A stretch of 64,000 nucleotides of DNA from Spiribacter salinus M19-40. Its GTDB lineage: Bacteria; Pseudomonadota; Gammaproteobacteria; Nitrococcales; Nitrococcaceae. Of the stretch, positions 37,323 through 46,066 are shown in pieces. Position numbers and translations under genes: made by a program. Location: contig NC_021291.1 of NCBI RefSeq assembly GCF_000319575.2, positions 620,001 to 684,000 on the forward strand, read 5' to 3'. The notes beneath the pieces were generated by a model. That model saw only the letters and a program-made list of their open reading frames with translations. It was not told where the DNA came from and made no database searches. Within the stretch, counting starts at the first letter, position 1. Each line of letters opens with the position of its first letter.

Positions 37323-39077
37323 TTATGAAGCCCGCGGCACCCGAATGCTCTCGACGAGCTCCTGAATCTCCTTCGGCGGCGGTGCCGTCATTCGAGAGAC
37401 CAGCAGCGCAAAGAACACGTTGATGATGGCACCGACAGCACCAATCGACTGCGGCCCAATGCCCATGACCCAGAACTCCGGCGTATCCGGCAGCATGTTC
37501 GTGCCCGGTACAAAGAACCAGCCCTTGTAGACGAACACGTAGATCAGGGTGAAGCTCAGGCCCGTGATCATGCCTGCCATCGCACCGGCGCTGTTCATGC
37601 GCCGGCTGAAGATGCCGAGCATGAGGACCGGGAACAGTGACGAGGCTGCCAGACCGAAGGCGAGGGCAACCACCTGTGCCGCGAACCCAGGTGGGTTCAG
37701 GCCCAGATAACCCGCCACCACGATGGCACCCGCCATCGCGATTCGCGCCGATAGCAGTTCACCCTTTTCGCTGATGCCGGGGTTGATCACACCCTTGATC
37801 AGGTCATGCGATATGGCGGAAGAAATTGCCATCAACAAGCCAGCTGCCGTTGACAGCGCAGCCGCCAGGCCACCGGCCACCGTCAGGGCAATCACCCAGG
37901 CGGGAAGCTGTGCGATCTCCGGGTTCGCCATCACCATGATGTCGCGGTCAACGCTGAGCTCGTTGCCTTCCCAGCCATATTCCTCGGCCGTCGGCGCAAA
38001 GTCCTCGTTGTCAGCGTTGTAGTACTGGATCCGGCCATCGTCGTTTTTGTCTTCAAAACCAAGTAGGCCAGTCTCCTCCCAGCGGGAGAACCACTCTGGT
38101 ACGTCCTCATAGGCCAGGTTGCCTTCTTCAGCGCCGATCTCGCCCGGCTGTACCGTGTTGATCAGGTTGTAGAAGGACATGGCGCCCACGGCGGGTGCCG
38201 TGGTGTAGAGGATGGCGATGAAGATCAGCGTCCAACCGGCTGACAGGCGGGCATCACGCACACGCGGTACGGTGAAGAACCGAATGATGACGTGGGGTAG
38301 ACCCGCTGTACCGATCATCAGCGACATGGTCAGGAAGAACATGTTGAGCGTGGTGCCCTTCATGATCGTGTACTGACTAAAGCCAAGATCGACGAGGATG
38401 TTATCGAGACGCTCAAGCAGGAAAGTCCCGTCGGCGACCGTGCCACCCAAGCCCAGCTGGGGCAGGGGGTTGCCAGTGATGGCCAGCGAGATGAACACCG
38501 CTGGGATCGTGTAGGCAAAGATCATCACGCAGTACTGCGCAATCTGGGTATAGGTAATACCCTTCATACCGCCGAACACCGCGTAGATGAACACAATGGC
38601 CATACCCGAGAGCAGCCCGATTTCGTAGCTTGTCTCCAGGAAGCGCGAGAACGCCACGCCGATGCCGCGCATCTGACCGATGACATATGTCACCGAAGCC
38701 ACGATCAACGCAACGACCGCAATGACGCGTGCTGGCTTGGAGTAGAACCGGTCACCGATGAACTCGGGCACCGTAAACTTCCCGAACTTGCGCAAGTACG
38801 GCGCAAGTAGCAGGGCAAGCAGCACATAGCCACCCGTCCATCCCATGAGATAGACCGAGGCGTCATAGCCCAGGAAGGCGATCAGTCCGGCCATCGAAAT
38901 GAACGAGGCCGCCGACATCCAGTCGGCTGCCGTGGCCATGCCGTTGGCGATCGGGTTGACGCCCTTGCCGGCGACGTAGAACTCGCCGGTGCTTCCGGCT
39001 TTCGCCCAGATGGCGATGCCGATGTACAGCGCGAAGGTCGCGCCGACAATCAGATAGGTAGTTAATGTAAGACCCAT
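37323..39077 (-). CDS. Sodium:solute symporter, large subunit (VC_2705-like, acetate permease-related)
   Basis: A 584-residue SSS-family transporter with about 13 helices. Conserved features are FYVAGKGVNPIANGMATAAD, MSAASFISMAGLIAFLGYD and ALSTAAGLLMAISSAISHDL, all shared with ActP. It differs from ActP by a long acidic extracytoplasmic loop at about 312-378, which includes an EF-hand-like DKNDDGRIQYYN segment (343-354). This loop, with a DUF4212 small-subunit gene 18 bases upstream, marks the VC_2705 subfamily (two-component SSS). The substrate is likely a small monocarboxylate such as acetate, inferred from the neighbouring acs. Sodium coupling suits a halophile. Confidence 0.88.
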   Translation of the reverse strand: MGLTLTTYLIVGATFALYIGIAIWAKAGSTGEFYVAGKGVNPIANGMATAADWMSAASFISMAGLIAFLGYDASVYLMGWTGGYVLLALLLAPYLRKFGKFTVPEFIGDRFYSKPARVIAVVALIVASVTYVIGQMRGIGVAFSRFLETSYEIGLLSGMAIVFIYAVFGGMKGITYTQIAQYCVMIFAYTIPAVFISLAITGNPLPQLGLGGTVADGTFLLERLDNILVDLGFSQYTIMKGTTLNMFFLTMSLMIGTAGLPHVIIRFFTVPRVRDARLSAGWTLIFIAILYTTAPAVGAMSFYNLINTVQPGEIGAEEGNLAYEDVPEWFSRWEETGLLGFEDKNDDGRIQYYNADNEDFAPTAEEYGWEGNELSVDRDIMVMANPEIAQLPAWVIALTVAGGLAAALSTAAGLLMAISSAISHDLIKGVINPGISEKGELLSARIAMAGAIVVAGYLGLNPPGFAAQVVALAFGLAASSLFPVLMLGIFSRRMNSAGAMAGMITGLSFTLIYVFVYKGWFFVPGTNMLPDTPEFWVMGIGPQSIGAVGAIINVFFALLVSRMTAPPPKEIQELVESIRVPRAS

Positions 39078-39095: not shown

Positions 39096-39362
39096 TTATT
39101 CTTCGTGGACGTCGTACTTTCGATCCAACGCGTTCATCTTGAACACGTAGGTGAAAATGAGCGCGATGAAAATGTAGATCGAACCCTGTTGGGCAAACCA
39201 GAACCCCAGGGGATAGCCGGCGATCACGATATTATTGAGAACCGGGGCAAGTATGATCCCGAGTCCGTAGGCAACGACAAACCAGATCACCAGCAGCGTG
39301 ATCAGGAGTCTGACGTTCTCCTTCCAATAGGCCTTTGCGGCCTCTTCTTTGCCTGAAGCCAT
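39096..39362 (-). CDS. DUF4212 sodium:solute symporter small subunit
   Basis: An 88-residue membrane protein with two helices (LLITLLVIWFVVAYGLGIIL and FWFAQQGSIYIFIALIFTYVF), matching the DUF4212 family found almost always next to VC_2705-type symporters. It probably pairs with the large subunit. ATG 39362 (MASGKEEAAKAYW) has a near-perfect AGGAGGAG with 8-base spacing; an upstream ATG at 39389 would add nine residues but lacks such a site. It is first in the symporter operon and is preceded by a sigma54-like promoter. Confidence 0.88.
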   Translation of the reverse strand: MASGKEEAAKAYWKENVRLLITLLVIWFVVAYGLGIILAPVLNNIVIAGYPLGFWFAQQGSIYIFIALIFTYVFKMNALDRKYDVHEE

Positions 39363-39427
39363 TGGCTTTGCTCCTCCTGCAGACGTCATTGTTATCGAGT
39401 GGGCAAGCCCAACTCACTCATTAGCTA

Positions 39428-39443
39428 TGCAAGAACCGTGCAA
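39428..39443 (-). promoter_or_regulatory. Sigma54-like (-24/-12) promoter for DUF4212-symporter operon
   Basis: On the minus strand the sequence TTGCACGGTTCTTGCA fits the sigma54 consensus TGGCACG-N4-TTGCW except for one base (G-25 to T); spacing between the -24 and -12 elements is exact. Transcription would start near 39417, leaving a 55-base leader before ATG 39362. A sigma54 activator (CbrB-like) is encoded 2 kb upstream on the same strand. Confidence 0.5.
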
Positions 39444-39475
39444 GCTTGTTCTTTTGCCTTTTTGACCAGAATCCC

Positions 39476-39511
39476 CCGTGGGACGGGCTTTGGCTGTATG
39501 CCGCCCCACGG
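39476..39511 (-). repeat. 11-bp inverted repeat upstream of sigma54-like promoter
   Basis: Arms CCGTGGGACGG (39476-39486) and CCGCCCCACGG (39501-39511) around a 14-base loop. On the minus strand all 11 pairs form (one G-U wobble). No T run follows in either direction, so it is not a standard terminator. It is centred about 77 bases upstream of the predicted start, where enhancer sites of sigma54 activators often lie; it could also be an acs 3' stem. Confidence 0.5.
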
Positions 39512-39557
39512 AGTCATTACAAAACGTTACCAAACGTAGCGATTGGTGATCCGTTCC

Positions 39558-39568
39558 GTAACAGTTAC
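39558..39568. promoter_or_regulatory. GTAAC-A-GTTAC palindrome, possible activator site
   Basis: A perfect 11-base palindrome overlapping the acs stop codon, about 145 bases upstream of the predicted sigma54-dependent start. Further half-sites occur at 39526-39530 (GTTAC) and 39516-39520 (ATTAC). Similar GTTAC and GTAAC words occur at 46026-46030 and 46074-46078 near the cbr operon start. Candidate upstream activating sites; unproven. Confidence 0.3.
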
Positions 39569-41502
39569 TGGTTGGCTCGGTTGCTGATGAGTTCATCGAC
39601 CACCGACGGGTCAGCGAGCGTGCTCGTGTCACCCAGGCTGTCCAGTTCGTTGGTGGCGACCTTGCGCAAAATGCGCCGCATGATCTTGCCGGACCGGGTT
39701 TTCGGCAGGCCCGGTGCCCACTGAATCACGTCTGGCTTGGCAATTGGTCCGATCTCTTTGCGTACCAGAGCCGCCAACTCGGCCTGCAGATCATCGGTAG
39801 GGTCGACGCCGTTGATCAGCGTGACGTAGCAGTAAATGCCCTGTCCCTTCAGATCATGCGGATAACCCACCACAGCGGCTTCAGCCACCGCGTCATGCAG
39901 CACAAGGGCACTTTCGATCTCGGCGGTGCCCATGCGATGACCCGAGACGTTAAGCACGTCATCCACGCGGCCGGTAATCCAGTAATACCCATCGGCATCA
40001 CGCCGGGCGCCGTCGCCGGTGAAGTACTTGCCCTTGTAGGTCGTCAGGTAAGTGTTCATGAACCGCTCATGATCGCCGTAAATCGTGCGCATCATGCTCG
40101 GCCACGCCTGATTGATGCACAGATTCCCTTCGGTAGCGCCCTCAAGGACGTTCCCTTCGTTGTCGACGAGCTGGGGCTCAACGCCGAAGAATGGCAATGT
40201 CGCTGAGCCAGGCTTGAGATCGACCGCCCCAGGGAGCGCCGAGATCATGATCGCGCCGGTCTCGGTTTGCCACCAGGTATCCACGATCCGGCAGCGCTCG
40301 TCGCCCACCACGCGGTAGTACCACTCCCAGGCTTCGGGGTTGATGGGCTCGCCCACCGTGCCGAGGATTCGCAGGCTCTGCCGCGAGTATTGCTTGACCA
40401 GCGCTTCGCCCTGGCCCATCAGCGAGCGGATCGCGGTTGGCGCGGTGTAGAAGATGTTGACCTGATGGTCATCAATGACCTGCCAGAAGCGCCCGGCGTC
40501 CGGATAGGTCGGGACGCCTTCGAAGATCAGCGTTGTCGCACCATTCGCCATCGGGCCGTAGACAATATAGCTGTGTCCCGTTACCCAGCCGACATCCGCG
40601 GTGCACCAGTAAATCTCGCCATCCTGGTAGTCAAAGATGTACTTGAAGGTCATGGCAGCTTGCAGCAAATAGCCGCCCGTGGTGTGCAGCACGCCCTTCG
40701 GTTTCCCGGTTGAACCGGAGGTATACAGGATGAACAGCGGATCCTCGGCGTCCATGGGTTCTGGCTCGCAGTCGGCCGAAGCCTCGGCGATTGCCTCCTG
40801 GTACCAGATATCGCGATCGGGGTTCCACGTCACCTCGTTGCCGGTGTGCCGGACGGTGACCACGGTATGCACGCTATCCAGGCCCTCAATGGCCTTTTCC
40901 ACGTTCTCTTTGAGCGGGACGGGCTTACCGCTGCGCAAGCCCTGATCCGCGGTAATGATCGTGCGGCAATCGGCATCTTCAATCCGATCACGGAGGGCAT
41001 GCGGCGAGAATCCCCCGAAAACGATCGAGTGCACGGCACCGATGCGTGTGCAGGCCAGCATCGCCACGGCTGCTTCCGGAATCATGGGCATGTAAATGGA
41101 TACCCGGTCGCCTTTTTTGACACCACGGCTTTTGAGCACGTTGGCGAGGCGACAGACCGCGTCATGGAGTTCGCGATAAGTGATGTGGCGGGTTTTGCCC
41201 GGCTCGTCGGCTTCCCAGATGATGGCGTTGCGATCACCGTGTGTTGCCAGGTGACGATCCACGCAGTTGTAGCTCACATTAAGTTTGCCGCCCTCGAACC
41301 AACGGATCTGACCGGTGGTCAGGTCGTTGTTACTGACCTTATCCCAGCGGGTAAACCAGCTCAGGAAGCGGTCGGCCTGCTCCCCCCAGAATGCGTCGGG
41401 CTCTTCAAGCGAGCGCCGGTACATCGTTTCGTATTCTGAGCGGCTCAACAGAGCCTGGTTCGCGACGGTCTCGGGGACCGGGTAGATTTTTTCTGCGGAC
41501 AT
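39565..41502 (-). CDS. acs: Acetyl-CoA synthetase
   Basis: Activates acetate to acetyl-CoA through acetyl-AMP. It has 645 residues, typical length. The AMP-binding P-loop [12 protein letters not shown], the [12 protein letters not shown] motif, the hinge/A8 region [21 protein letters not shown] and the C-terminal [11 protein letters not shown] are all present; K606 in the last motif corresponds to the lysine regulated by acetylation in the Salmonella enzyme. The ATG at 41502 has GGAGGAG upstream. It lies 52 bases downstream of the cbrB-like gene on the same strand and upstream of the symporter operon. Confidence 0.97.
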
Positions 41503-41554: not shown

Positions 41555-42889
41555 CTATCCTGCTTGTCGTCGGCGCTGGAGTCCAAGTCTTTGCCGTCGC
41601 TCCCACAGGGCTTTGCGGCTGATGCCGAGCCGTTTGGCCAGTTCTGTCTCGGTCAGCGCCGCCTCGTGTGTCCGGACAAAGGCCCGGAAATACTCCTCCA
41701 GCGACAGGTCCATTCTCTCTGCTGCAGGATCGCCGTCGGCGTCTTTGAGCGCCAGATCGCTGGCCGATACCTCGCTGCCATCGGTGAGAATGACCGCGCG
41801 CTCGATGACGTTCTCCAGTTCACGGACGTTGCCGGGCCAGTGATGGGCCTGGATTTGCACAAGCGCGTCCTTGCTGAATGCCATGGTCGGTCGATTAAGC
41901 CGCCGGCAGGCCTTTTCCAGGAGAAACTGCGCCAGTTCGGGCAGATCCTCGCTGCGCTCACGTAACGGCGGCAACCGAATCTCCATGACATTGATTCTGA
42001 AATACAAATCGTCACGAAAATCTCCGACCCGGATCAGGGCTGGAAGATCCTGATGGGTCGCCGCAATAAGCCGGATATCGACGCGTCTTGATTGGGACGC
42101 GCCAACCCGCCGAATCTCTGATTCTTGCAGAACCCGCAGCAGCCGGCCCTGGGCAGCGGTGGGGAGCTCGGCAATTTCATCGAGAAATAGCGTCCCGCCA
42201 TTCGCGGCCTCAACCAGACCCTCACGGGCACGCTCGGCGCCGGTAAATGCCCCTTTCTCATGGCCGAACAGCTCGGCCTCGATCAGTGTTTCTGGTATGG
42301 AGGCGCAGTTCACGGCGATGAGCGGGCCATCGCGACGGTGGCTTTGCTCGTGCAGTGAACGGGCCACCAGCTCCTTGCCAGTGCCGGATTCTCCCAGGAT
42401 CAAGACCGTTGTGTCGGTCGGGGCCACTCGGTTGATGCGCTCGAACACACCCTGCATTGGCGCGCAGTGACCGACGATGCCGGTCACCGGGTAGTCCGCG
42501 TCGATCTGCGCCCGCAGCGCTGCATTCTGGCGCTGCAGCGTATGCTCGCGCAGGGCACGCTCCACGGTCATCCGCAGCTCGTCATTGTCAAAAGGCTTGG
42601 GGATATAATCGACCGCGCCGCGCCGCATGGCGTCGACAGCAGAGCGCACACTGGCATAGCTGGTCATGATAATGACCGGGACATCGCCCGCCGCCTCGAT
42701 CAAGTCCATCCCGTTGCGCCCGGGGAGGCGAATGTCCGCAACGATTAAATCATGGTGGCTGAGCGGGCCATTCGCTAGCGCCTCTTCAACGGACTCTGCG
42801 CCAGTGACATGCAGGCCATCGCGTTCGAGCAGACGCATGATGGCCTGGCGGATGATGGTTTCGTCTTCAATGATCAGCACGTCAGCCAT
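41555..42889 (-). CDS. cbrB: Sigma54-dependent response regulator, CbrB-like
   Basis: An NtrC-family activator of 444 residues. Receiver domain with IIEDE and phosphoacceptor D52 ([10 protein letters not shown]); AAA+ domain with Walker A GESGTGKE at 166-173, the sigma54-contacting loop GAFTGA at 213-218 and Walker [10 protein letters not shown] at 231-239; C-terminal Fis-type helix-turn-helix ([21 protein letters not shown]). The ATG overlaps the upstream kinase gene by 8 bases. The name rests on synteny: gluQ, small membrane protein, CbrA-type kinase and this regulator occur in the same order as in Pseudomonas. In Pseudomonas CbrAB governs carbon/nitrogen balance and the Crc/Hfq system. Here acs follows in place of pcnB. 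Confidence 0.87.
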
Positions 42890-45821
42890 GCGCTTGCAGT
42901 TCTCCCGGCAGATCAGCGACAGGTAACCGGATGACCACCTCCGTACCCGAGGTGCGACCGCGGCGAGGCTGCAGGTTCAAGCTGCCCTGGTAGTCGCTGA
43001 CGATGTTGTAGGCGAGTGATAGCCCAAGGCCGGTGCCTTGTCCCGGTGCTTTGGTGGTGAAAAACGGCTCCAGTACTTTGTCCCGGATGCCGGCCGGGAT
43101 CCCATGGCCCGAGTCAGTAATGCGAATCGTGACCGTATCGCGCTGGCGCTTGGCCGTGGTGCGGATCTCGTCACCGGGCGCACAGGCGTCGACTGCATTG
43201 CTGTAAAAGTTCACGAACACCTGCACCAGACGCTGGTGTTCGGCCATGACGGCGAGGCCGGCTGGGATATCGTTGTGAAAAGAGAGCGCCCGGGCGCGAC
43301 TGGCCAGCCTAACCAGCCGTTTGGCCTCCTCGGTGACCGCCGCGAGATCGGTGGGCTCGGGTGTGCGGGGCTCGTTCACCCGGCCTGCGTGGGCGTAGCC
43401 AACCAAGGTCTGGACGATATGGTTGATGCGCTGCGTCTGCTCCAGGATCTGCGTCGATCGCGCTCGATCGGGGTCTTCCTCATGCAGTTCCTGAGCCAGA
43501 CAGGCAATGCCCGTTACCGGATTGCCGATTTCGTGGGCAACCCCTGCTGCCAAGCGCCCAATCGAGGCAAGGCGCTCGCTATGGGTCAGCTCATCCTCGA
43601 GGCGCTGGACGTCGGTGACATCCTCGAGCAAGACGAGTTGATCCCCATTCTCGTCTCCCGCAGGACCACCGATCAGTGCCTTGTGCAGGGTGAGCCAGCG
43701 GCGCTGATCGGGCAGGGCGAGTGGCCGTTTGTAGGCCTTGTTGCTGTCCTCACTGATGAACGACGCCAGGAGCTCTCCCCAAGGCGCCGGCACTTCTCGA
43801 AGGTGTCGGCTCAGCACACGGGGTGCCCGAATTCCGGTCATCGCGTCCATGGCCGGATTCCAGCGCGCGATGTGGCCCGCCGGCGTAATGGCGACGACAC
43901 CGAGGGGTAGGTCTTCGAGAATCTGGCGATGATAGCGGCGCAGCGTGTCGAGCTCGGCGGCGATGCCCCGTAGCCCACCCTGGGAGCGCTCCAGGCGCTC
44001 TTCAATCAAGCGCACATTCTGGGCAATGGCCCCGCGGCTGTCAGCGTCGAGCCGCAGACATTGATCCACAATATCCCGGGCCAGGACGGGCCCCATCATC
44101 CCGGAGAGATTTCGTTGCACCTGCTCACGCAGCTGATGCAGTCGGTCAGGCCGGTTTTCGGACCAGGCGAGATCCATGTCATCGAGCGCTTTGGCAATTT
44201 CGGCCTCCGCGGCCGGGGCGCCCATGACGGGAGTGAGTTGCTCGACGAATTGTTGCGGTGAGGTGGCCAGTAGCGCACCGCTTGGCATGCTCGTGCTGAC
44301 ATCGCGACAGGCACCGGCAGCGGCCACTTCACGGCGGTCTTGTCGTGTGAAGGTGGATACGGCGATAAACACCAGCAGATTTGCACTGACCGACCAGAAG
44401 GCCATGCTCCCGAAGTGGGCCGGCGTCTGCGCAGCCAGCAGATCAACGCCGACCACCTCGATCGGGCCAACGGTGGAGAGTGCCGGGAAGAGACCCGCAA
44501 TGCCCCAGAGACTGCCGCCAGCCACCAGCCCGGCGATGAATCCGGATCGGGTCGCGCCGGGCCAGTAGAGCAGCGCTATAACGCCGGGGATAAGCTGGGC
44601 CATAGCCAGAAAGGAAATCAGCCCCCAGGACACCAGCCCGTCACTGCGCTCCAGGGTGAGGTAGAAAACGTAGCCAGCACCGATGATGGCAACGATCAGC
44701 ATCCGCCGCACCCAGCGCAGGGTGCCGTAAAGATCGCCCAGGGGCGCCAGCCTGATCAAAGGCAGCACCAAGTGGTTGAGGCACATCGACGAGAGCGCCA
44801 GCGTTGAGACAATGATCATGGCGCTGGCGGCCGAGATACCACCCAGATAGACAAACAACGCGACAGCGGGTGACTCAGTTAATTGGGCGATGCCCAACAC
44901 GGTGTAATCCGTGGGTGTGTCGAGTCCGATGGCCTGGCCAGACCAGAGCAGCGGCGGGATCGCCGCGGCAATCACCAGCAGGAACAGCGGAAAGGCCCAG
45001 CTCGCCGTGCGCAGCCCGGCATCCTGGAGATTCTCGGTGAACAGCATGTGGAACTGTCGCGGCAGCAGAAAGGCGGCTGCGAAGGCAAGAAACATCAGCC
45101 CGGTCCATTCTCCACCACCGACACCGCGCGTGAACTGCGATAACCGCCTGGGATCCTGATTCAGCCAGTCCTGAAGCCCGCTCCAATGACCGAAGGCCAT
45201 GCTCACGGCCAGGCCCGTGATGAACACCAGGGCGGCCATTTTGACCACCGATTCGAAGGCAATGGCGGCGACGAGGCCACTGTGCTTTTCGCGTGGCGTG
45301 ACATGCCGGGCCCCAAAAATGATCGCGAACACCGTCACGATCACACAGAACACGATGGCAATTAGCTGAGGTGGTGAGTCGCCGGTGAGGATTTGGGTGG
45401 ACTCGGACACGGCCCGCACCTGGAGCGCAAGGTAGGGCAGGCTCCCCGTCAGGATCATCAGTGTCACCAGGATGCCGGCGAGTTGACTGTCAAAGCGGAA
45501 AGCAAACAAGTCGGCCACGGAGGTGAGCTGATGGCGTCGGGTGAGCCTGAGCAGCGGCATCAGCAAAACGGGCGTGAGCGCAAAGGCGAGCGTGACGCCT
45601 ACGTAGATCGTGATAAAGACAAGCCCTGAGCTCCCGGCAAAACCCACGCTGCCGTAATAGCTCCACGTTGTCGCGTAGACGCCGAGTGAGAGCACGTAGA
45701 CGGCTGGGTGACGGACAATTCGACTGGGTATCCAGCCGCGTTCGCTGGCATGAGCAACGAGAAACAGCAGCGACAGATAGACCGTCGCGCCGATGAAAAG
45801 TGTGGTCAGGCTAAAGGTCAC
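42882..45821 (-). CDS. cbrA: SSS-transporter-like sensor histidine kinase, CbrA-like
   Basis: A 979-residue membrane sensor. Residues 1-490 form a sodium:solute symporter-like module of about 13 helices. A STAC-like linker (about 520-600) and a PAS domain (about 625-735, [18 protein letters not shown]) follow. The kinase core has H763 in GVAHEIGNP, the N box around N871-N875 (NFYSNAVDA), DSGHG at 903-907 and GTGLGLS at 929-935. This architecture is that of CbrA (about 983 residues in Pseudomonas) and of the related CrbS; the absence of a C-terminal receiver and the NtrC-type partner favour CbrA. It overlaps cbrB by 8 bases and the upstream small gene by 11. Confidence 0.88.
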
Positions 45822-46005
45822 GCCGGCCCCCGAGCAGGTTGGTCATCGCGACCACGCCGATATAGCCAAGCCAGAGGGCGAAGGGCAGATACCAGGGTGC
45901 CGAGAGCCCGGACCACCAGATCGCAAAGGGAGAGACGAACAGCACCAGTCCGATGCCTAGCAGCAATAGACTGACAGAGCCCGTAGACGCTTCTTGCCTG
46001 GGCAT
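45811..46005 (-). CDS. cbrX: CbrX-like small membrane protein
   Basis: A 64-residue protein with two predicted helices (VSLLLLGIGLVLFVSPFAIWW and YLPFALWLGYIGVVAMTNLL). It overlaps the start of the CbrA-like gene by 11 bases. In Pseudomonas a small ORF of this kind, called cbrX, lies between gluQ and cbrA and is translationally coupled to cbrA; position and topology agree. ATG 46005 is chosen because GGAGGAGG lies 7 bases upstream; GTG 46011 would add two residues. Sequence identity to CbrX could not be checked. Confidence 0.7.
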   Translation of the reverse strand: MPRQEASTGSVSLLLLGIGLVLFVSPFAIWWSGLSAPWYLPFALWLGYIGVVAMTNLLGGRRDL

Positions 46006-46066
46006 CGGCACACCTCCTCCTTCCTGTTACTGAACGTATCACAGGTTGGGTGAAGGAAGGGAAGCC

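Follow-up and report, generated by a model that had tools for sequence, protein, structure and literature searches.

A predicted CbrB-activated sigma54 promoter upstream of the DUF4212-symporter operon of Spiribacter salinus M19-40

Gene order and promoter elements at the locus

The window analyzed here is a 64,000-nucleotide stretch of the Spiribacter salinus M19-40 genome. On its minus strand, a cbrX-like open reading frame (ORF), a sensor kinase gene, an activator gene, acs, the putative promoter, a DUF4212 gene, and the gene of a VC_2705-family symporter follow each other in this order. The cbrX-like ORF (45811..46005, 64 amino acids) shares 11 bases with the start of the kinase gene and shows weak similarity to an ORF of Pseudomonas loci (35% over 51 amino acids, E ~1e-4 in a small database). 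The kinase (42882..45821) has an SLC5/STAC-like N terminus and PAS, HisKA, and HATPase domains; the domain search gave no Response_reg match. Its residues 1-589 match PDB 10ED at 1.6e-156, an entry presented as CbrXA SLC5-STAC in the available part of a preprint (PMC13022988). The activator (41555..42889) is composed of REC, AAA+, and Fis-type helix-turn-helix (HTH) domains, and its AAA+ domain is intact, with Walker A, GAFTGA (residue 213), and Walker B. Downstream lie acs (39565..41502; acetate--CoA ligase, above the cut-off of TIGR02188), the DUF4212 gene (39096..39362; Na_symport_sm, PF13937 at 1.9e-34, TIGR03647), and the sodium/solute symporter gene (37323..39077; TIGR03648 at 2.2e-250, PF00474). 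The sequence-only reading had put a CbrB-like sigma54 activator just upstream on the same strand. Its nature and strand were borne out, while acs sits between it and the DUF4212 gene.

The activator had its best matches in Pseudomonas indica, Pseudomonas sp. PIC25, and Stutzerimonas urumqiensis, with identities of 60-61%, or of 57% when tblastn was run over the full length. Other activators of these three Pseudomonads reached 42-45%, compared with 57-61% for the best match, and the kinase adjoining the best-match activator was 45-46% identical to the window kinase. In both of the three Pseudomonad loci that were searched (L305 and L307), an Rfam CrcZ match was located ~170-220 bases behind the activator gene, showing that both are cbrAB-crcZ loci. 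The window pair is therefore taken, by similarity, as CbrA and CbrB orthologs. The genome contains one rpoN (PF04552, 5.8e-68) and two strong PF00158 proteins, NtrC and the CbrB ortholog, both with GAFTGA; three further PF00158 matches are weak. A third PF00158 protein, which we take to be NtrX, has no GAFTGA.

The putative promoter core is TTGCACGGTTCTTGCA (39428..39443, minus strand). The position and strand, the single departure from the consensus, and the exact -24/-12 spacing proposed from the sequence alone were all reproduced by the pattern scan, in which the core deviates from TGGCACN5TTGCW by a T instead of G at -25. Thus, the -24 G alone of the GG at -25/-24 is present, and the -12 element is TTGCA with N5 spacing. 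At a limit of two mismatches the window had 23 sites; at a limit of one, this core was the sole site left. Dinucleotide shuffles gave a mean of 35.6 sites at the two-mismatch limit, indicating that the two-mismatch sites are due to chance. Genome-wide, 48 sites (25 + 23) with at most one mismatch were counted, and 47 (24 + 23) for the reversed pattern. Because matches equal the reversed control, consensus counting was rejected as evidence, and the "near-consensus" match emphasized by the sequence-only reading has, by itself, no statistical weight in the genome-wide scan that it had called for. By a simple codon model, 38 of the 48 sites are inside genes and 10 outside, the latter including those before glnA, a presumed ntrB, a Peripla_BP_5 gene, and the DUF4212 gene. 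The site before the Peripla_BP_5 gene, at genome position 955002, is an exact match; further sigma54-like sites outside genes are at 246482, 754997, 846959, 946962, 960440, and 1098388. Spread over 3.48 Mb of strand, these 48 sites give any one 175-base gap a chance of ~0.2% of containing a one-mismatch site on a specified strand. What makes a sigma54 promoter plausible at this place is its position; the number of matches does not.

From the end of the core, it is ~49 bases to the ribosome site of the DUF4212 gene, AGGAGGAG (39378-39371), which corrects the 55 bases first claimed, and 65 bases to the ATG at 39362-39360. The AGGAGGAG..ATGGCTTC arrangement is present in 12 of 16 family loci and the codon model also selects 39362, so this start codon is more likely than the longest-ORF start at 39389. 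The -24/-12 register predicts transcription initiation 11 bases past -11, at 39417 (±2), and hence a leader of ~55 nt. A stretch resembling ATAACAAGGCGnCAGG recurs in the DUF4212 leader of several members of the genus (e.g., L020-L022).

Upstream of the core are two copies of a dyad of the form GTTAC-N5-GTAAC, both imperfect, which we propose as CbrB enhancer sites. The proximal copy, GCTACGTTTGGTAAC (39526..39540, minus strand, one mismatch), starts 97 bases before the core start. The distal copy, GTTACGGAACGGATC (39548..39562, minus strand, two mismatches), starts 119 bases before it, 22 bases from the proximal copy; it overlaps no gene and falls 3 bases short of the acs stop region. A third dyad, GATACGTTCAGTAAC (46026..46040, minus strand), lies 20 bases before the ATG of the cbrX-like ORF. 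No sigma54 core paired with it was found, and it probably serves autoregulation of cbrX-cbrA.

Distribution of the core and of CbrB in the family

Among 23 family genomes, all contain rpoN and 16 contain DUF4212. Ten of these 16 have an intact CbrB ortholog, G017 has a reduced one, and 5 have none; the kinase is present or absent together with the activator, except in G017, which keeps the kinase. When the 480 bases upstream of the DUF4212 domain were scanned for a -24/-12 element with at most two mismatches, as the sequence-only reading had suggested for related genomes, the element was detected in 9 of the 10 that have an intact CbrB but in none of the other 6 (Fisher 9e-4, uncorrected for kinship). 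The tenth genome, G014, has GTGCATGATTTTTGCA, with three mismatches, which was recognized after the scan. Among intergenic gaps, the core pattern with at most two mismatches was found in 8 of 10 between acs and DUF4212 and in 15 of 36 between cbrB and acs. Both numbers exceeded every one of 200 letter shuffles, and the five gaps from CbrB-less genomes had none.

The acs tree places four of the five genomes without CbrAB in one clade and G002 apart from it, which indicates at least two separate losses of CbrAB. The symporter tree is poorly resolved and needs three label changes, and the G014 symporter is divergent. Relatives share ancestry, so the counts overstate independence; the independent losses amount to two plus one AAA+ deletion.

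In elements picked by score, the GC at -12 is present in 9 of 9 DUF4212-type and 16 of 16 acs-type elements. The acs-type elements have GG at -25/-24 in 16 of 16 and are variable at -14. The orthologous DUF4212-type elements have T at -25 in 7 of 9 and TTGCA at -12 in 8 of 9. Since the T recurs in this way, the single mismatch of TTGCACGGTTCTTGCA is, on this comparison, a conserved trait of the DUF4212-type promoter.

These data bear on whether the core is a chance match, with transcription reaching the operon from acs or starting at a sigma70 promoter missed by the scan. The 48 sites versus 47 for the reversed control, and the 38 sites inside genes, are what such an explanation would predict. 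Against it stand the conservation and joint loss of core and CbrB, the upstream dyad, and a scan of 39340-39620 in which neither sigma70-type nor terminator-type matches were found. We consider a chance match very improbable.

The upstream dyad and its targets across the order

The dyad was first spotted by eye in some of the upstream sequences in which it was later counted, and for this reason the counts are descriptive. With at most one mismatch, it was present in all 10 acs-DUF4212 gaps behind CbrA (G017 included), in 22 of 36 cbrB-acs gaps, and in 30 of 32 pre-cbrA regions; the last number refers to 32 of 41 loci, nine having been dropped for a short flank or an incomplete kinase match. 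By comparison, 59 letter permutations of the half-sites reached at most 2 (pre-cbrA), 2 (cbrB-acs), and 1 (acs-DUF4212), and other spacers from 0 to 20 reached at most 1, 6, and 5, respectively, the larger values probably coming from tandem copies. Tandem dyads 20-23 bases apart were also seen in L196, L201-L203, and L205. Before cbrA, the dyad has the form GATAC/GCTAC-N5-GTAAC, with a perfect GTTACCCCCAGTAAC in L308-L310.

Dyads and cores were then paired, choosing the best site per region. At DUF4212 and acs the dyad-to-core distances are 55-140, mostly 67-97 bases; unusual values are those of L203 (132) and L197 (140, for acs). A scripted list of 25 distances to the nearest dyad clustered with a period of ~10.5 (R 0.57, p ~3e-4, uncorrected for kinship and for the choice of period), and an earlier list of 24 distances without outliers gave R 0.61 at 10.5.

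In the S. salinus genome as a whole, the dyad was not in excess: allowing one mismatch, it matched at 23 places and the reversed control at 55. Eight of eight places evaluated by the codon model are inside genes, and the other 15 were compared with open frames only. A larger CbrB regulon in this genome was rejected, as DUF4212 alone among the 23 places has a nearby core with at most one mismatch. Two places, L207 and L215, have two-mismatch cores and may be further targets; L207 fits in direction and distance but is inside an open frame.

Could the promoter instead be driven by NtrC, the other sigma54-competent activator, under nitrogen limitation? NtrC carries GAFTGA, and sigma54-like sites stand before glnA and the presumed ntrB. 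However, the element tracks CbrB and not rpoN, which all 23 family genomes have, and the dyad upstream of it is the one common to the cbrA and acs promoter regions. Control by NtrC is therefore highly unlikely.

In G017, the activator gene (L200, 10070-10597, minus strand; the contig is the same as that of L033) encodes 176 residues in which REC (1-114) is joined in frame to the HTH (380-444), the AAA+ domain being wholly deleted; this deletion rests on one metagenome bin. The kinase and the dyads are kept. In the gap before DUF4212 the dyad is perfect, and the -24/-12 place reads TTGCGTGGGGATTGCT, with three mismatches. A core used by sigma54 and a dyad used by the DNA-binding domain would be expected to diverge in this way. 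The pattern also fits a CbrB ortholog that acts mainly as a repressor or as a sigma70-type regulator via the dyads, the sigma54 core being a relic, and the dyad found in pre-cbrA regions, which has no paired core in the window, points in the same direction. Yet the conserved core stands at the distances given above after the dyad at both DUF4212 and acs, and the AAA+ domain of the window protein is intact. We regard a relic core as a slim prospect and an active, CbrB-dependent promoter as the better reading.

A CbrB ortholog was detected at E <= 1e-150 in 40 of 54 genomes of the order. The 40 loci fetched are those of 39 of these genomes and the truncated locus of G017. In all 40, the kinase gene precedes the activator gene, and in 35 acs lies behind cbrB; the remaining five contigs stop soon after cbrB, one of them showing a CBS-domain gene instead of acs. 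In families f2 and f3, 16 of 17 cbrB-acs gaps contained the dyad, compared with 0 of 7 in f4. Two related families have both dyad and core ahead of acs. In f4, dyad and core are further off in L185, L186, L187, and L189 (near 10.4-12.3 kb), divergent from a CBS-domain gene, and in L185 and L187 they precede the gene of an SSS-type symporter (763 and 716 residues, below the NCBIfam cut-offs).

A fairer check of the dyad than counts in sequences where it was spotted is a scan of named loci, of which 79 were scored (80 less one too short). Five contained the dyad. Four of these (L033-L036) duplicate bins or species of family genomes that had been analyzed before; L037 is the only one outside the family, and in its genome the activator later turned up on another contig. 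In 74 loci outside the family, cores with at most one mismatch occurred in two and with at most two mismatches in seven, all without the dyad; these cores are unexplained or due to chance. The two (L058 and L078) are from Pseudoalteromonas, with the sigma54-like element 63 and 53 bases before DUF4212. Outside the order, a CbrB-type protein (53-61%) was found in 11 of 36 named genomes queried, and in 0 of 11 was there a dyad at DUF4212, showing that the dyad wiring is a lineage trait. The direct regulatory prediction made from the sequence alone, CbrB acting on the sigma54 promoter, is thus supported by sequence comparison, joint conservation and loss, and the upstream dyad, but does not extend to the 11 CbrB-type genomes found outside the order.

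A CrcZ-like RNA behind cbrB in the order was also considered and rejected: nine order loci (the window not among them) gave no Rfam match to CrcZ, and 28 gaps behind cbrB contained 0-1 AAnAAnAA motifs each. Two successive sigma54-like cores were observed behind cbrB-type genes in L309:6487-7500 (a Gammaproteobacteria bin) and L310:6492-7600 (a Bermanella bin). A-rich repeats follow each core, with 21 (L309) and 26 (L310) overlapping AAnAAnAA matches in ~1 kb, of 31 per 10.5-kb locus. They possibly represent twin CrcZ-like RNAs; L309, which alone of the two was searched, had no Rfam match.

Proposed circuit and comparison with known systems

The best explanation, to which we assign a probability of roughly 85%, is that TTGCACGGTTCTTGCA is the core of a CbrB-activated sigma54 promoter transcribing the DUF4212-symporter operon. 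Points against it are the absence of a genome-wide excess of either sigma54-like sites or the dyad, the missing first G of the -24 box, the imperfect dyads of the window, the unusual distances in L203 and L197, the cores lacking a dyad in loci outside the family, and the 11 CbrB-type genomes outside the order whose DUF4212 has no dyad. In this halophilic bacterium, the short DNA switch would probably turn on a nutrient importer via an alternative RNA polymerase factor and a sensor-regulator pair of which Pseudomonas provides the best-known example. The parts, their order, and their joint conservation and loss, as seen by comparison, suggest a sequence of phosphotransfer, binding, looping, and activation. 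The CbrA ortholog, a transporter-like sensor kinase, would phosphorylate the CbrB ortholog, which would then bind the tandem dyads at 39562-39526. The DNA would loop, the AAA+ domain of CbrB would remodel the sigma54-RNA polymerase waiting at the core, and transcription would start near the predicted position 39417. The linkage to acs hints that the circuit may be tied to acetate or another short organic acid.

More tentatively, and with the odds somewhat against it, CbrAB in this order may be a dedicated switch for uptake of short organic acids (probably acetate), in which CbrB drives acs and symporter operons, not crcZ, from sigma54 promoters with the 15-bp dyad. The promoter would have moved between targets: acs in f2 and f3, the DUF4212 symporter in the genus of the window, and another SSS-type symporter in f4. 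The CbrB of G017 may have become a small sigma54-independent regulator on the old dyads and would, if so, be a regulator caught leaving sigma54 control. The order offers a natural record of how targets of a sigma54 regulator are exchanged and lost. With 1.74 Mb, two strong sigma54 activators, and one clear CbrB target within the scan, the S. salinus genome would offer a simple setting for identifying the CbrA transceptor's signal.

NtrC-type sigma54 promoters such as that of glnA resemble the present one in core, activator architecture, and upstream dyads, but the dyad and the signal of NtrC are different. The CrbS/R (MxtR/ErdR) acetate system also has an SLC5/STAC kinase and controls acs and actP in its species, according to the available parts of PMC5715377 and PMC7918813. 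There, however, a hybrid kinase with a C-terminal REC is paired with a LuxR-type regulator at the ACTU motif; identity of the window pair with CrbS/R was rejected on domain content, the kinase having no REC and the regulator being REC-AAA+-HTH. RpuS/R of Sinorhizobium fredii likewise has an SLC5/STAC kinase and controls an SSS symporter, MctP, but its regulator is of the LuxR type and its kinase a hybrid, and in the available text of PMC9100948 no role of sigma54 was seen. The accessible sections of a sigma54 regulon survey (PMC12316311) do not mention CbrB or acetyl-CoA synthetase. We found no paper on wiring between CbrB, sigma54, and acs or DUF4212 in the literature on DUF4212, CbrB or CbrA in Ectothiorhodospira, Spiribacter, and relatives, sigma54 and acetate genes, and SLC5/STAC, a body represented mostly by titles and thinly covered for subscription journals.

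The closest relative is CbrAB-crcZ of Pseudomonas and Azotobacter. As far as its available descriptions go, CbrAB is called exclusive of the Pseudomonads (PMC6296734; much the same in PMC8871633), cbrX and crcZ are described, and the activating signal is given as not identified (both PMC8871633). A CbrA/CbrB-homologous system is listed in the available part of a report on a sulfur-oxidizing gammaproteobacterium (PMC4136832), so homologs outside the Pseudomonads have not gone wholly unnoticed. Shared with CbrAB-crcZ of Pseudomonas and Azotobacter, as far as the accessible accounts show, are the cbrX-cbrA-cbrB order, CbrA as an SLC5/STAC transceptor, CbrB as a sigma54 activator, the half-site GTTAC/GTAAC, and a sigma54 promoter downstream of cbrB or near it. 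The sites differ: P. putida has one forward and two reverse subsites (F1, R1, and R2, with centers 20-25 bp apart, in the available part of PMC6296734), a layout not matched here, where the dyad has a spacer of 5 bases only and is often doubled at ~22 bases. The targets differ as well, being the acs and symporter operons, with no CrcZ in the nine order loci searched. Sequence comparison gives a well-supported prediction of a promoter of known kind, with target genes that differ from those in Pseudomonas.
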